Assembly (NCBI GenBank): GCA_946480995.1 | Contig: CAMLMF010000113.1 | Location: 1-7,524, forward strand | Direction of reading: 5' to 3' | Source: an uncultured Bdellovibrio sp. | GTDB taxonomy: Bacteria > Bdellovibrionota > Bdellovibrionia > Bdellovibrionales > Bdellovibrionaceae | DNA: 7,524 nucleotides | In this document: positions 2,329-7,524 of the stretch, one piece after another | Layout: the number at the start of each line of letters is the position of its first letter | Numbering within the stretch: position 1 is the stretch's first letter | Translations under genes and position numbers: made by a program | Notes under the pieces: generated by a model | What the model saw: only the letters and a program-made list of their open reading frames with translations | The model's database searches: none | What the model was told of the DNA's origin: nothing

Positions 2329-3105
2329 CTAAAATAGAAAATTGTTCGTTAAAGTGACAAATTTTTCTGGTGATTCAATGTTCGGGCAATGTCCCAAACC
2401 AGGCAGGGTCTGGAATTTTCCATGCTTGAACAAGCCCGCCAAAGCCTTGGAATCATCCACCGGCAAAAGCTTGTCTTCATCGCCATGCACAACCAAAACT
2501 TCATTCTGAACTGTCTTTAATTGATCACGAATATCAAGACCATCTAAGGCTTCAAGCACCCAGTGACCTACTGTTTTAACAGCATGAAAAGCGTCTTCGA
2601 CCACAACTTGGCGGAAGAAATCTGATTCCGCATTATTATTATGAATCGTAGATCCAATAACTGCGGCCGTTAAATTTTTATCCTGCTTCATTTGTTCAAA
2701 GGCAGCGATCATGGATCTGTCGAATGTCACACCTTTTGCGCCCACCGGGTCCAACAAAAGAGCTTTTTTAAACATTGTCGGCTCTTTGGCCATCATTAAC
2801 GCCGCAATTAAGCCCCCGGTAGAGTGCCCAACCAAATGCACCGGACCACGATTTAACTTTTTTAGAAGGGCAATAAAATCATCGGCAAAAGTATTCAGAT
2901 TCACTTCGCTCGCATCTTTCGGAGCCGTGCTTTTACCGCAACCACGAAATTCAGCGTAAATCAAAGCGCCTGGCAGTTTATTGCCGGCCGTTTGCTTTTT
3001 CCACACTTCTTCAGCGGGATACCACCAACGGTTCGAAGCCAGGTTGCCATGAATAAAGAAAACATCTTCAGGCACTAAGCCTTCGTGAACTTCGTAATTA
3101 ATCAT
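2329..3105 (-). CDS. Cytoplasmic alpha/beta hydrolase (Ser-His-Asp type)
   Basis: This 258-residue single-domain alpha/beta hydrolase is probably an esterase, thioesterase or lipase-like enzyme acting in the cytoplasm; the substrate cannot be read from sequence. The oxyanion-hole strand is FFIHGN (about 16-21). The nucleophile elbow is GHSTGG with S95, the acid is probably D211 in HGDEDKLLP, and the base is H239 in GLGHCPNIESPEKF. A cap region with no clear family signature lies between about 125 and 185. There is no signal peptide or membrane helix. The ATG at 3105 overlaps the TGA of the upstream hydrolase by four bases (ATGA), so the two are almost certainly translationally coupled. Only a weak AGG-type ribosome binding site precedes it, in line with coupling. 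The Ser nucleophile argues against a haloalkane dehalogenase or OleB-type enzyme, which use Asp. Confidence 0.88.
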   Translation of the reverse strand: MINYEVHEGLVPEDVFFIHGNLASNRWWYPAEEVWKKQTAGNKLPGALIYAEFRGCGKSTAPKDASEVNLNTFADDFIALLKKLNRGPVHLVGHSTGGLIAALMMAKEPTMFKKALLLDPVGAKGVTFDRSMIAAFEQMKQDKNLTAAVIGSTIHNNNAESDFFRQVVVEDAFHAVKTVGHWVLEALDGLDIRDQLKTVQNEVLVVHGDEDKLLPVDDSKALAGLFKHGKFQTLPGLGHCPNIESPEKFVTLTNNFLF

Positions 3106-4106
3106 TGGCGACCTACTTTGATAGATTCATCACCCGCGCGAACTTCACCACGGAATGGGTAACCTTCAAAATGAGTTCCTTGGAAAAGTTTTTTATTGCC
3201 CATCAAGATTTCATAAACCCAAGTGGCTGTGAAGTAAGGAACAGCTTCAACCATTTTGTGCTCTGAACCGTTGATGTACAGCAAACTTGCGCGAGCTGCC
3301 GTCGGAACTGCATCCCAGTACTCTTCAAGGACGTTCGCATTGATGTACTGATCTTGGCGCGCGATCATTAGATGCAATGATTTTTCAGGAAGTGTTCCTG
3401 TCGTATCTGCAGGACGCTCTTTGCGGATGCCTTGAACCAAACGGAAGATTGCTTCTAGTTTAAAAGGATTTTCAAGAACGATCGGCTCTGCTTGCGGATA
3501 AGTCGCGTAAACGATTTGGTGCAAGTAATAGTCATAAAGTTCATCATCAGACATTTTGTTGAACGGAAAGATCTGGCGAGTTGCCCAGATTTGCGCCTTG
3601 ATCCAGTCGTCAGTTCCCGCAACCGGGCGCGTGAACGGCGCCATCATGATCAAGTTTTTCACAAGGTTTGGATAAGCGGCAGCAAAACCTGCGGCAATGC
3701 CGCCGCCATAAGATAGCCCAGCTAAATTATAAGGGCCTTTAATTTTTAATTTTTCAAGAAGCGCTTTTAAGTCTTCGACCTGCTCTTTTGCAGTGATCAC
3801 GGACATGATCGGAGCATACTTTAAAAGCGTACGGCCTTGGCCTTGCATATCGTAGCGCAGAACGCCGATGCCTCGAGCCACCAAAGGGTCCGTGAAGTTG
3901 TCCCACTGACGAGTGCTGTATGTAAGACCATTGATCAAAACAACCGTTGGCTTGCCTTCCGCTGCGGGCACGTAATCAACATACAATTCACGTTGATTAG
4001 AAATCGCCACGAAGCCATGAAATTTGTCAGAAGTTTGCGCCAATGACTCCATCGAAACAAACAGTCCCGCAAAAATAACCAGTGCAGCTAAGATCAATGA
4101 TTTCAT
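3102..4106 (-). CDS. Exported alpha/beta hydrolase (lipase/esterase-like)
   Basis: This 334-residue alpha/beta hydrolase has a classical signal peptide: MKS, a hydrophobic core to about residue 18, and a likely cut after SLA (about 23). It should therefore work in the periplasm or outside the cell. Fold landmarks are VVLINGLTYS (about 55-64, oxyanion hole), YDMQGQGRT (about 85-93), the nucleophile elbow GLSYGG with S132, the acid D252 in ARQDQYI, and H283 in GSEHKMVEAVP. A helical cap lies at about 160-235. About 50 residues follow the catalytic His, longer than in typical family members. The last 25 or so are hydrophilic and aromatic (GTHFEGYPFRGEV) and may be an extra domain edge or surface tail. 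The start is backed by GGGGAGG at 4114-4120, seven bases upstream. It sits 48 bp after the SDR gene with no terminator between, and overlaps the next hydrolase by four bases. Substrate is unknown; an ester or acyl-thioester is the natural guess from the neighbours. Confidence 0.88.
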   Translation of the reverse strand: MKSLILAALVIFAGLFVSMESLAQTSDKFHGFVAISNQRELYVDYVPAAEGKPTVVLINGLTYSTRQWDNFTDPLVARGIGVLRYDMQGQGRTLLKYAPIMSVITAKEQVEDLKALLEKLKIKGPYNLAGLSYGGGIAAGFAAAYPNLVKNLIMMAPFTRPVAGTDDWIKAQIWATRQIFPFNKMSDDELYDYYLHQIVYATYPQAEPIVLENPFKLEAIFRLVQGIRKERPADTTGTLPEKSLHLMIARQDQYINANVLEEYWDAVPTAARASLLYINGSEHKMVEAVPYFTATWVYEILMGNKKLFQGTHFEGYPFRGEVRAGDESIKVGRQ

Positions 4107-4154: not shown

Positions 4155-4904
4155 TTAAAGAACGATTCCACCGTCGACACTTAAAACTGTGCCGTTAATA
4201 TAGCTCGACTGCTCACTTGCCAAGAACAAACATGCATTTGCAATATCTTCCGTCTCTCCTAAACGAGCGACAGGTACTTTGGCAGCCATACCGTCTAGAA
4301 CCTCGGTTGGCATTTTCATAGTCATAGCTGTTTTAATGAAGCCTGGAGCAATTGCATTCGAAGTGAAACCCTTGCGACCTAATTCTTTGCCCCAAGTTTT
4401 CGCCATACCAATAACGCCAGCCTTAGCAGCTGCGTAATTTGTTTGGCCGAAATTTCCGTACAATCCCACAACCGAAGAAATGCTGATAATACGCTTGTGA
4501 GCAGAAGCAGCGTTGAATTTTTCCAATAACGTTTTTGTAACGTTGAACAAACCCGTTAAGTTTGTGCTGATGACTGCGTCCCAATCTTCAGGACCCATTT
4601 TTGCGAATGATTTATCACGCGTGATTCCAGCGTTATTCACAAGGATATCCACAGCCCACGGCAATGCCGCTGCTGCTTTTGCGACTGAATCACGATTGGT
4701 GACGTCGACTTGTGCGATGTGCACCTGCGCACCGTATTGTGCAAATTCAGTTTTTGCAGTTTGCAAAGCTTGCTCAGAGTAATCCCAGATGGAAACATTT
4801 CCACCCGCCTCTAAGAAACTTTTAGTGATTTGAAAACCGATACCGGCAGCGCCCCCGGTAACGACAGCATTTTTATTTTGGAAATTGAAGTTCATATTTT
4901 TCAT
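4155..4904 (-). CDS. FabG/PhaB-like short-chain dehydrogenase/reductase (3-oxoacyl reductase family)
   Basis: This classical SDR of about 249 residues probably reduces a 3-oxoacyl thioester (ACP or CoA) or a related ketone. The cofactor motif is TGGAAGIG (16-23), with NNAG at 90-93 and N115 in ISTNLTG. The catalytic set is S144 (SSVVG), Y157 and K161 (NYAAAK). PGF at about 187-189 and the C-terminal VDGG match FabG spacing. D41 at the end of the second strand (SIWDYS) is where SDRs that prefer NAD(H) carry an acid, unlike typical NADPH-using FabG. The frame stays open upstream to 5123, but the extra N-terminus runs into the divergent gene and resembles nothing. ATG 4904 or ATG 4895 (giving MNFNFQ, close to other FabG starts) are the real choices. 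Neither has a good ribosome binding site; the nearest G-run is GGGG at 4919-4922, 14 bases from 4904. It is the first gene of the minus-strand unit with the two hydrolases. Confidence 0.9.
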   Translation of the reverse strand: MKNMNFNFQNKNAVVTGGAAGIGFQITKSFLEAGGNVSIWDYSEQALQTAKTEFAQYGAQVHIAQVDVTNRDSVAKAAAALPWAVDILVNNAGITRDKSFAKMGPEDWDAVISTNLTGLFNVTKTLLEKFNAASAHKRIISISSVVGLYGNFGQTNYAAAKAGVIGMAKTWGKELGRKGFTSNAIAPGFIKTAMTMKMPTEVLDGMAAKVPVARLGETEDIANACLFLASEQSSYINGTVLSVDGGIVL

Positions 4905-4933
4905 AGAGCATGGGCTTACCCCAACAAACCCCC

Positions 4934-4960
4934 AGGCCGTCAAAGGAATTCGGCTTTTTT
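4934..4960 (+). terminator. Hairpin followed by six Ts in the divergent leader
   Basis: On the plus strand AGGCCG (4934-4939) can pair with CGGCTT (4951-4956), six pairs including one G-U, around an 11-base loop, with the T-run at 4955-4960. It has the shape of a weak intrinsic terminator. No plus-strand gene lies upstream of it in the window, so if it works it would stop transcription started from the far side of the gap. On the opposite strand the same bases form a hairpin in the SDR leader. Chance is a real alternative. Confidence 0.25.
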
Positions 4961-4961
4961 C

Positions 4962-4985
4962 GCTCTGTGAATAGAGCAAATGCTC
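4962..4985. repeat. Two overlapping inverted repeats, candidate operator
   Basis: GCTCT (4962-4966) and AGAGC (4973-4977) form an inverted repeat with a six-base spacer. The second arm is shared with GAGCA (4974-4978), which forms a nearly closed palindrome with TGCTC (4981-4985) across two bases. The flanks AATA (4970-4973) and TATT extend the second symmetry imperfectly. Lying between divergent genes, this is the best operator candidate in the window. Confidence 0.4.
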
Positions 4986-4998
4986 GATATTTCTTTTC

Positions 4999-5028
4999 TT
5001 GCCAAAATGGGAAAATGCTCTGTAGATG
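4999..5028 (+). promoter_or_regulatory. Possible sigma70-type promoter for the KAS III/ligase operon
   Basis: TTGCCA (4999-5004) matches five of six -35 positions. With an 18-base spacer the -10 would be TAGATG (5023-5028), which is poor. A TGCTCT element (5016-5021) would sit inside the spacer, a position where a bound regulator would block polymerase. Transcription would start only about 20 bases before the gene. Confidence 0.25.
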
Positions 5029-5040
5029 ATCGAAATCTTA

Positions 5041-5045
5041 AAGGA
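5041..5045 (+). promoter_or_regulatory. Ribosome binding site that decides the KAS III-like start
   Basis: AAGGA sits only three bases before ATG 5049 but nine bases before ATG 5055. The normal spacing therefore favours 5055, and disfavours the far upstream in-frame ATG at 4980, which lies within the repeat region. Confidence 0.6.
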
Positions 5046-5054
5046 AACATGACG

Positions 5055-6059
5055 ATGAACAAACAAAAAGCAACAATCGTAGGAACCGGAATGTACGCGC
5101 CTGAACGCGTAATTTCCAATCAATACTTTAATGATCTTTACAAAAAAGACATCGGAACTTTCTTAAGCGAAAGCAGAAACATCAAAGAACGTCGCTGGAT
5201 GAGAGAAGACCAACGCACTTCGGACCTTATTATTCCTGCAGCTGAACAAGCGATGAAAAAAGCTGGCATCACAGCTAAAGACTTAGACCTTATTATTGTC
5301 TCTACGGACACTCCTGACTATTTATCTCCTTCGACAGCTTCCGTGGTCGCGTACCGTATGGGTGCCGTGAACTCTGGAACTTACGACATCAACTCTGCCT
5401 GCGCAGGCTTTGTTGTAGGTTGCGATATCGCGACGAAATACATCATGTCTGACAGCAAGTACAAAAACATCTTGGTTGTTGGCGCGTACGGCATGAGCAA
5501 GTATTTAAATTTTGATGATTACAAAATTGCATCGTTGTTCGCTGACGGCGCCGGTGCCGTGATCATTCAGCCTTCTAAAGACGACACGGGCTTTATCGAC
5601 AGCCAAATGTACACCGATGGTCAATATCATGACTATATGGGTATCTATGCTGGCGGCACAGCGCAACCAGTGACTCATCAAGTGGTCGAAAACAAAGGTC
5701 ACTTGTTGGCGTTCCCAAAACGCATTCCACCTGAAACGAATGGCATTCACTGGCCACGTTTGACCAACATTTTGTTGGATCGTTTGCATAAAACTCCGCA
5801 AGACATTAAGCATTTCTTCATCACGCAATTTAACGTGCAAAGCATCTACGAAACTTTGGACAAATTAAATCTGCCACGCGATCGCGCGCATTACATCATG
5901 GACCGCTTTGGTTACACAGGCTCTGCTTCTATCGGCATGGCTTTAGCGGACGCGGCAGAACAAAAGAAAATGAAAAAAGGCGACCTAGTATTTATGTTGG
6001 GTTCTGGTGGCGGCATGAGCATGGCGGCATTGGCACTTGAGTGGGGATACGACACTTAA
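5055..6059 (+). CDS. Ketoacyl-ACP synthase III (FabH)-like protein with altered His and Asn positions
   Basis: This 334-residue thiolase-fold protein of the KAS III family is of normal length. The N-terminal KAS III signature is IVGTGMYAPERVISN (8-22). The active-site Cys is C116 in NSACAGFVVG; FADGAGAVII (162-171) and the C-terminal GSGGGMSMAALA are typical. The segment DIKHFFITQFN (250-260) aligns with the FabH stretch ending in PHQAN, which places T257 where the catalytic His should be. FGYTGSAS (285-292) aligns with GNTSAAS, which places Y287 where the catalytic Asn should be. Decarboxylating condensing enzymes need Cys-His-Asn, so this protein may instead transfer or hydrolyse an acyl group, or belong to a KAS III subgroup with its own chemistry. 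It starts the plus-strand unit; the acyl-CoA synthetase follows after 31 bp. Start 5055 is chosen on ribosome-binding-site spacing. The family is certain, the reaction is not. Confidence 0.9.
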   Translation: MNKQKATIVGTGMYAPERVISNQYFNDLYKKDIGTFLSESRNIKERRWMREDQRTSDLIIPAAEQAMKKAGITAKDLDLIIVSTDTPDYLSPSTASVVAYRMGAVNSGTYDINSACAGFVVGCDIATKYIMSDSKYKNILVVGAYGMSKYLNFDDYKIASLFADGAGAVIIQPSKDDTGFIDSQMYTDGQYHDYMGIYAGGTAQPVTHQVVENKGHLLAFPKRIPPETNGIHWPRLTNILLDRLHKTPQDIKHFFITQFNVQSIYETLDKLNLPRDRAHYIMDRFGYTGSASIGMALADAAEQKKMKKGDLVFMLGSGGGMSMAALALEWGYDT

Positions 6060-6090
6060 TTGGACCTTTGATTCAGTAAAGGAGCGGGAC

Positions 6091-7524
6091 ATGGAACTTG
6101 ATTGGCTAAAACGCTGGAAACTTTATTCACCTAAAAATATTGCCATTAAAGATGGCGAAACGGGTCGTGAATTTTCTTACGCCAAACTTTATGAGTTGGC
6201 CAATCAAGGCGCGCACTTGCTGCGCTCTAAATACGGCATCAGCAAAGGCGACCGCGTTGCAGTTCTGGCAACAAATGAGCTTGAATACGTTTTCGTGTTC
6301 TTTGCTTTACAACGTTTGGGAGCGATTTTAGTTCCTGTAAACTTCCGCCTTACACAGCGTGAGGTCGATCACATCATCACGGATTCATCTCCGAAAATGA
6401 TTTTATTCCAAGAAGCTTATCGCGAAGTGGTTGAAAAACTGCCAGCTTCGATCAATCCAATTAAATTGTTATTCCAAGGTAAAGACAGTTTTGCCGAACA
6501 GTTAACTTCTGTCGCAGATGCGGGTGAATATCCATTCACGGCGCAAGAATCTGATCCTGTCATGATTCTTTATACATCAGGCACAACGGGCGCTCCGAAA
6601 GGCGCAATCCTTACTTATAAGATGCTTTTCTGGAATTCGATCAATACGACTTTGCGTTTGAATATTTCGCAAAATGATTGCATCGTGATTTTCCTGCCAT
6701 TCTTCCACACTGGTGGCTGGAATGTGTTAACCACACCGTTCATTCACCGTGGTGCTAAAGTCGTCTTCTTAAAAAAATTCGACGCCGAACAGATTCTGTC
6801 TTTAAGCGAACAAGAAAAAGCGACGATGATTTTTGGTGTACCAACAACCATGGACATGATGGCGCGCTCTGCACTGTTTGAAAAAGTTGATTTAAAATCT
6901 GTACGCTATGCCATCGTGGGCGGCGAACCGATGCCCATTGAATTGATCAAAACTTGGGACAAAAAAGGCATTCCTATCCGTCAGGGTTACGGTTTGACTG
7001 AATTTGGTCCAAATGTGTTTTCTTTAAACGAAGAAGACTCGATCCGCAAAATTGGCTCTATCGGATTTCCAAACTTTTATATCGAAGCGAAAGTCGTCGA
7101 CAATGAAGGTCGCGAGCTTGCTGACGAACAAGTGGGCGAACTAGTTCTGCGCGGACCGATGTGCATGCAAGGTTACTGGCACAACGAAAAGGCCACACAA
7201 GAAACCATCAAAGAAGGCTGGCTGTACACGGGCGATTTAGTTCGTCGTGATTCAGAAGGCTATTACTATGTCGTCGGTCGCAAAAAAGACATGTACATTT
7301 CTGGGGGCGAAAATGTTTACCCGCCAGAGGTTGAACAAATCCTGCGCGCGCATCCCAAAGTTTTAGAAGTCGCGGTTGTCGGCGTTCCTGATGAAAAATG
7401 GGGCGAGGTCGGCAAAGCATTTGTCGTCGCCGAAGATGCTTCCGTGTCTGCCGATGAACTTTTAAATCATTGTGTACGGAATTTAGCGAAGTTCAAAATT
7501 CCTAAACACTTTGTTTTCCTGAAA
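6091..7524 (+). CDS. AMP-forming acyl-CoA synthetase (FadD/MenE-like), C-terminus cut by window
   Basis: This adenylate-forming ligase activates a carboxylic acid as acyl-AMP and then acyl-CoA (possibly acyl-ACP). It is cytoplasmic, with no signal peptide. The 478 residues seen include all main motifs in order: the ATP loop YTSGTTGAPKG (161-171), FLPFFHTGG (201-209) of the acyl pocket, QGYGLTE (298-304), YTGD (379-382), and the hinge/A8 block GRKKDMYISGGENVYP (396-411). The window ends inside the C-terminal lid domain, just before the usual GK lysine of adenylation, so that residue cannot be checked. The start at 6091 follows AAAGGAG (6078-6084) with six bases between. The 31-bp gap after the KAS III-like gene shows an operon; the ligase probably supplies, or uses, the acyl group handled by that protein. 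The chain length preferred cannot be read. A feruloyl-, o-succinylbenzoate- or medium-chain-type ligase are all possible. Confidence 0.93.
   Translation, partial: MELDWLKRWKLYSPKNIAIKDGETGREFSYAKLYELANQGAHLLRSKYGISKGDRVAVLATNELEYVFVFFALQRLGAILVPVNFRLTQREVDHIITDSSPKMILFQEAYREVVEKLPASINPIKLLFQGKDSFAEQLTSVADAGEYPFTAQESDPVMILYTSGTTGAPKGAILTYKMLFWNSINTTLRLNISQNDCIVIFLPFFHTGGWNVLTTPFIHRGAKVVFLKKFDAEQILSLSEQEKATMIFGVPTTMDMMARSALFEKVDLKSVRYAIVGGEPMPIELIKTWDKKGIPIRQGYGLTEFGPNVFSLNEEDSIRKIGSIGFPNFYIEAKVVDNEGRELADEQVGELVLRGPMCMQGYWHNEKATQETIKEGWLYTGDLVRRDSEGYYYVVGRKKDMYISGGENVYPPEVEQILRAHPKVLEVAVVGVPDEKWGEVGKAFVVAEDASVSADELLNHCVRNLAKFKIPKHFVFLK

Follow-up and report, generated by a model that had tools for sequence, protein, structure and literature searches.

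Enzymes of the KAS III (FabH) type work with a Cys-His-Asn triad, whose His and Asn are responsible for decarboxylating the second reactant (PMC4807248, in excerpt). The same excerpt describes FabH lacking the His as only ~10-fold less active, and the His-to-Ala variant of PqsBC as acylated at 76.6 per s, compared with 86.9 per s for the wild type. PqsC departs from the triad at the Asn, which is replaced by Val; its Cys is still acylated, His269 is retained and the partner PqsB is needed. CerJ, ChlB3 and DpsC are acyltransferases of KAS III fold that depend on a Cys or Ser nucleophile and pair it with His and Asp (PMC9573744, PMC12664062, both in excerpt; one passage calls the DpsC triad Ser-His-His), the Asp of the CerJ/DpsC type lying five or six residues past the His (H295-D301, H297-D302). 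In aldolases of the thiolase fold, Tyr serves as the acid or the base: CtSal requires Tyr302 and Cys304, and TcLtp2 uses two tyrosines (PMC12329534, in excerpt). The 3-oxopimeloyl-ACP synthase BioZ is a KAS III with a link to catabolism (PMC7645780).

The window analysed here, a stretch of 7,524 nucleotides of Bdellovibrio DNA, carries a KAS III-like gene at positions 5055 to 6059 of the plus strand. The reading frame is intact (334 amino acids, ATG at 5055, stop codon at 6057-6059) and is preceded by the sequence AAAGGA. The Pfam domains ACP_syn_III and ACP_syn_III_C place the product in the KAS III superfamily with FabH fold, and all 50 matches shown in the fold search were KAS III entries. 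BioZ was the top Foldseek match by E-value, with 25% identity. The scores stayed below the NCBIfam cut-offs for FabH-type proteins (229.3 bits with PRK09352, cut-off 249; 201.8 bits with fabH, cut-off 292.1). The fold and the superfamily are already known; no description of the altered-site family introduced below, or of its operon, was found in the open-access literature as judged from titles and abstract openings.

The nucleophile is kept as C116 (codon 5400..5402, plus strand), which corresponds to Cys112 of FabH according to the reading frame and the alignments. The other two triad residues are replaced: T257 (5823..5825, plus strand) stands at the position of FabH His244 and Y287 (5913..5915, plus strand) at that of Asn274. 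All five PDB alignments shown paired the His with T257 and the Asn with Y287. An alignment of 124 rows including E. coli FabH gave the pairs H244/T257, N274/Y287 and F304/S317 with a constant offset of 13, indicating that the two proteins align without gaps over that stretch. A preliminary description had placed these three codons at the same coordinates, exact when counted from the ATG at 5055, and had read Thr and Tyr in place of the catalytic His and Asn from a gap-free alignment made by eye; both kinds of alignment now bear it out.

The triad swap is part of a wider remodelling of the active site. Relative to the FabH proteins of E. coli, Aquifex and S. aureus, not only His244 and Asn274 are exchanged (for Thr and Tyr), but also Phe304 for Ser (S317, codon 6003..6005), Phe87 for Ser (S91, 5325..5327), Ala216 for Asn (N229, 5739..5741) and Leu220 for Trp (W233), all three codons being on the plus strand. 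D85, S91, N229, W233 and S317 are fixed in the 112 distinct rows of the FabH-aligned family. In two further lists of the 120 best-scoring proteins N229 and S91 were present in 120/120 each, and S317 in 119/120 and 120/120. Phe87 of FabH caps the acyl pocket (PMC12664062, in excerpt), and its replacement by Ser suggests a larger acyl pocket in the altered-site family. A relocated catalytic His was sought among the same 112 distinct rows: there is no invariant His, and the best His column, at residue 279, reaches 87%. The position of the OleA glutamate presumably coincides with Ser91, by our own reading.

The altered residues are conserved almost without exception. T257 and Y287 occurred together in 121/121 rows made up of the query and its 120 best-scoring proteins, and in 120/120 of each of two more lists collected with Rhodothermus-type and Cyclonatronum-type members, the three lists consisting of nearest relatives by score, with possible overlaps. 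Among 81 genome loci including the query both residues were found in all, and C116 in 80. We take the remaining row, a gap at C116, to be that of locus L003. There (5396-6397) the gene appears split into two ORFs in a MAG contig, which could be an assembly error. The 36 matches among 198 genomes of the phylum of genome G002 had C116 and Y287 in every case and T257 in 35, the exception (L105) having Ser.

Canonical KAS III genes served as controls. In eight genomes bearing the altered gene, 14 other KAS III-like matches were detected; the three weakest were left out, and all 11 genes fetched had the His and the Asn (HQAN, GN), so that each of the eight genomes possesses a separate KAS III with both residues. 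The same was true of 20/20 lower-scoring KAS III matches picked by hand from Bdellovibrionota genomes. The scores of the two groups, over 144 Bdellovibrionota genomes, were divided by an empty gap (334.6 vs 186 bits). A quick tree (midpoint root; the program issued a warning about the long row L090) split 112 altered-site rows from 12 canonical KAS III rows by a branch of 2.37 with an SH-aLRT value of 100; L003, with its gene in two ORFs, and the second locus copies L092, L104, L118 and L094 were omitted from the 112-row family set. The near-total conservation of T257 and Y287, the long branch and the score gap agree with the earlier view that the gene represents a functional subgroup and is not decaying; decay or a sequencing artefact was rejected on the strength of conservation and open frames in many assemblies. 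That view had also held a changed chemistry to be likely, an expectation which the kept C116, the lost decarboxylation pair and the split from canonical KAS III would support.

The closest named proteins were annotated as Bdellovibrio ketoacyl-ACP synthase III (identity up to 93%), the closest protein of all being 97% identical. Named relatives among those listed carry ketoacyl-ACP synthase III-like names, which the active site does not support. A scan of genome contigs yielded at least 482 confirmed stretches, and the best 80 of these, used as loci, came from Bdellovibrionota, Bacteroidota, Ignavibacteria, Calditrichota, KSB1, Chlorobi-type bacteria and Gemmatimonadota (Gemmatimonadetes), with a few others labelled Pseudomonadota, Proteobacteria, Deltaproteobacteria or just bacterium. 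The gene was present in 23/144 sampled genomes of Bdellovibrionota, the phylum of genome G001 (identity at least 51%), and in 36/198 sampled genomes of the phylum of G002 (E <= 1e-70). Members include entries from the cultured species Rhodothermus marinus, 98% identical to the protein of locus L122, and from Cyclonatronum proteinivorum, 100% identical to that of L113. The quick tree placed seven loci from outside Bdellovibrionota (L042, L046, L049, L050, L052, L056, L059) among Bdellovibrionota rows, a placement that could reflect gene transfer.

Downstream of the KAS III-like gene, 31 bases after its stop codon, an AMP-binding acyl-CoA ligase of the FadD type begins (6091..7524, plus strand, cut by the window end), with AAAGGAG before its start. 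Upstream and divergent lies a FabG-like classical SDR (4155..4895, minus strand; Pfam and NCBIfam models adh_short and FabG), followed on the minus strand by two alpha/beta hydrolases, AB1 (3102..4106), with an N-terminal signal-like stretch, and AB2 (2329..3105), without one, both as judged by eye. The divergent intergenic region (4896..5054) is likely the promoter region for the SDR and KAS III-like genes. Locus L001, from a Bdellovibrio MAG, repeats this gene order at 94-98% identity. A second KAS III was not seen in the window, and another KAS III ORF lies alongside in only 1/86 wide loci (L029, 4262-5326, 33% identical). The suggestion of the preliminary description that the protein might be the partner of another synthase thus finds no support, although a partner could be encoded elsewhere, and a second subunit encoded alongside, as in a heterodimer of the PqsBC type, was not seen. 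Like the present protein, PqsC is a KAS III with an altered triad. Its Cys is still acylated, but it retains His269 and needs PqsB (PMC4807248, in excerpt), whereas the present protein has no His at this position and no partner gene next to it.

The hydrolases and the ligase belong to families so broad that they point to no particular substrate. The best ligase structure was feruloyl-CoA synthetase with 323 bits, but FadD13 followed at 318.7 bits, so the feruloyl name carries no weight and a feruloyl or aromatic acid substrate was rejected. The hydrolases matched PHA depolymerase models only far below the cut-off; such matches were given little weight because generic alpha/beta hydrolases produce them too. 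PHA or another 3-hydroxyalkanoate was therefore dropped as a named substrate, and PHA catabolism stays an idea. The OleABCD set, composed of a KAS III-like protein, an alpha/beta hydrolase, an AMP ligase and an SDR, has a gene mix similar to that of the cassette described here. An olefin cluster was nevertheless rejected: the SDR of the window, recognised by the adh_short and FabG models, is of the classical FabG type and not of the OleD type. The uptake genes of many operons are another difference from the Ole set.

Marker genes were counted in those 60 of 86 loci that had at least 4 kb of flank on each side, ORFs shorter than 90 amino acids being left out. Near the KAS III-like gene, 58 loci had a ligase, 52 an SDR, 4 a MaoC hydratase and 55 some alpha/beta hydrolase; near copies were kept, and the 60 are not independent, many being close Bdellovibrio and L122-L126 being near copies. 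An SDR or a MaoC gene was present in 56/60 and both together in none. The operons of L042, L046, L052 and L056 have the MaoC hydratase and no cassette SDR. L075 and L127 have a ligase and neither SDR nor MaoC, and L026 and L030 lack all marker genes. The cassette SDRs of 6/8 genomes were 53-61% identical to that of L072, compared with 38-47% for the other SDRs listed; the two MaoC-type genomes (G004, G006) had no cassette-type SDR. Apparent fusions of FadD with a transporter in L122 and L071 were dismissed, the translations showing these long ORFs to be out-of-frame upstream extensions in GC-rich DNA.

Uptake and regulatory genes recurred in the same 60 loci: SSF symporters in 19, MFS transporters in at least 5, MarR regulators in 22, and a 516-aa barrel and a small lipoprotein in 17 each. 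The MFS figure, obtained with one reference protein, is a lower bound, and a second MFS cluster adds L051, L054, L063, L071, L073, L074 and L078, part of which the figure already includes. In L072 the barrel-like protein (12721-14268, ~516 amino acids) is without Pfam domain and resembles an outer-membrane barrel, and the lipoprotein lies at 12048-12548; both recur elsewhere. All 23 barrel-bearing genomes among the 198 fell, in a comparison made by eye, within the 36 genomes with the KAS III-like gene, against a chance expectation of about 4; in genome G144 the two genes are on separate contigs. TonB-dependent receptors adjoin the gene in L122, L126, L127, L061 and L069, five loci chosen as mutual BLAST relatives, L069 showing the plug and no barrel domain. 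Such receptors or their BLAST relatives were noted beside the operon in L122-L127, L061 and L069, all of them loci in which the search for the 516-aa barrel gave no match. Many operons beyond Bdellovibrionota thus also carry MarR, a symporter and either a TonB receptor or an outer-membrane barrel, while Bdellovibrionota loci had no transporter or barrel near the gene save SSF in L035 and MFS in L074.

Carrier proteins (PF00550) were absent within 15 kb of the KAS III-like gene in 13/13 genomes, some contigs being short, and the nearest match, a weak one, was ~19 kb away in G139. In contrast, the canonical KAS III has a carrier protein no more than 3 kb away in 5/8 genomes (G001, G003, G005, G007, G008). 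The neighbours differ from those of FabH loci in being ligase, SDR, hydrolases and transporters rather than a carrier protein, and they form a cross-phylum cassette that points to uptake and catabolism and not to polyketide or fatty-acid synthesis. No acyl-CoA dehydrogenase (PF00441) was detected within 30 kb of the KAS III-like gene in the 13 genomes, as far as contig ends allowed, indicating that this region does not encode all of beta-oxidation. Thiolases were present in 13/13 genomes searched and within the operon only in G007. A canonical thiolase adjoins the operon in 4/86 loci, L066 (6023-7207), L070, L054 and L073, just upstream of the SDR and KAS III-like genes; it was identified by Pfam in L066 and by 60-84% BLAST identity in the other three.

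Taken together, the kept Cys, the lost decarboxylation pair, the seemingly opened pocket, the lack of a nearby carrier protein and the import and activation partners suggest, with a probability of roughly 0.45, that the protein is a Cys-dependent, non-decarboxylating acyl-CoA acyltransferase, perhaps of the thiolase type, in an uptake-coupled catabolic pathway. Formation of an acyl-Cys intermediate is very likely, and acylation without His is favoured by the PqsBC His-to-Ala variant, which is acylated almost like the wild type (PMC4807248, in excerpt). Normal malonyl-ACP condensation is likely to have been lost, and a role in a catabolic uptake pathway is probable. For C-C cleavage as opposed to plain acyl transfer the chances appear about even.

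Along the proposed route the hydrolase would free a carboxylic acid, which would enter the cytoplasm, in Bacteroidota by way of the outer-membrane receptor or barrel and a symporter of the SSF or MFS type. Once activated to its CoA thioester by the FadD-like ligase, the acid would be handled by the SDR or by the MaoC hydratase, which would interconvert the 3-hydroxy form with the 3-oxo or 2-enoyl form; both enzymes use 3-hydroxyacyl thioesters. The KAS III-like protein, presumably unable to decarboxylate malonyl groups, would form a thioester at Cys116 from acyl-CoA, with Thr257, Tyr287 and perhaps Asn229 standing in for His and Asn, both in acid-base catalysis and as uncharged donors of hydrogen bonds. 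Transfer or cleavage of the acyl group by this protein would follow, with retro-Claisen (thiolase-type) cleavage of a bulky 3-oxoacyl-CoA as the most likely reaction.

Several observations bear on the last step. Known thiolases retain a His and an Asn-bound water, which counts against a thiolase-type reaction. The thiolase beside four of the 86 operons suggests that the route may pass through 3-oxoacyl-CoA, and at the same time it weakens the claim that the KAS III-like protein itself performs the thiolysis. MaoC-type genomes without cassette SDR fit a strict order of ligase, SDR and thiolase poorly. Because of these thiolases, of the MaoC operons lacking an SDR and of the absent acyl-CoA dehydrogenase, plain acyltransferase and aldolase readings still deserve consideration. 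We tentatively suggest that the Cys-Thr-Tyr site, with Asn229 and Ser317, might define a new KAS III catalytic class, performing His-free C-C cleavage (thiolase- or aldolase-type) of imported bulky acyl-CoAs within a multi-phylum operon for uptake and degradation of a hydrophobic carboxylate or ester. From its gene content the cassette would serve a pathway of uptake and degradation, of which the open-access search turned up no description, in Bdellovibrio-type bacteria and in Bacteroidota including Rhodothermus marinus. With both decarboxylation residues lost and the site kept almost letter for letter across phyla, the family is a clean natural experiment on the capabilities of an unaided Cys in a KAS III fold.

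The protein could instead be a plain acyltransferase or thioesterase of the CerJ/ChlB3/DpsC type, in which Cys116 would hand the acyl group to water, CoA, or an alcohol or amine acceptor without any C-C chemistry. The invariant Cys and the vanished decarboxylation pair are what such an enzyme would show, and like CerJ, ChlB3 and DpsC it would combine the KAS III fold with a departure from Cys-His-Asn. As described in the excerpts of PMC9573744 and PMC12664062, however, those enzymes pair the nucleophile with His and Asp, and their conserved catalytic His has no invariant counterpart in the altered-site family. At the spacing of their Asp the residues following Y287 are S292 and I293, assuming from that spacing that their His corresponds to the FabH Asn position. 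An acceptor such as a carrier protein is also missing near the gene in 13/13 genomes. Overall, plain acyl transfer appears rather unlikely.

A condensing enzyme, in which Thr and Tyr would stabilise the enolate and the 3-oxoacyl-CoA product would be reduced by the SDR for lipid or natural product formation, is unlikely. KAS III, SDR and acyl-CoA ligase, with or without MaoC, also make up a biosynthetic set, the fold matches shown were KAS III entries throughout, and the merely 10-fold cost of replacing the His in FabH (PMC4807248, in excerpt) makes its loss compatible with condensation. Biosynthesis is not what the receptor or barrel, symporter, MarR and hydrolase genes of many operons would lead one to expect, nor does it agree with the empty 15 kb around the gene in the carrier-protein search.

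Still less likely is a retro-aldolase that splits 3-hydroxyacyl-CoA into an aldehyde and acyl-CoA, with Tyr287 as acid-base residue as in the thiolase-fold enzymes Sal and Ltp2. The protein resembles CtSal and TcLtp2 in its thiolase fold, a Tyr that could be catalytic and a MaoC-type partner hydratase, since MaoC-type operons combine hydratase and KAS III-like protein without the cassette SDR in the manner of the Shy-Sal pair. Those aldolases belong to another branch of the thiolase superfamily and have a DUF35 partner and another motif; neither YDCY nor YDHF occurs in the present protein, and no DUF35 domain was detected in the neighbour proteins scanned, which were part of all neighbours. 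Such a reaction leaves the invariant Cys116 at its KAS III position without a clear role, and SDR genes (52/60 loci) far outnumber MaoC genes (only 4/60). Steroid aldolases were also absent from the fold matches listed, which excludes nothing.

The overall fold and Pfam domains would also suit a decaying copy, or a normal FabH that tolerates the substitutions. Either is very improbable, since T257 and Y287 are conserved almost completely across phyla, each of eight genomes has another KAS III in which His and Asn are present, and the reading frames are open.

On the far side of the hydrolase genes, the minus strand of the window at 3-2183 encodes a cytochrome c (Pfam) that adjoins the cassette. 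From a look at the sequence we take the same segment to encode two more proteins: a cytochrome oxidase subunit II, incomplete at the edge of the window, and an SCO1-like protein, the latter without Pfam match. Relatives of the SCO1-like protein occurred in 18/86 loci and relatives of the cytochrome c in 20/86.
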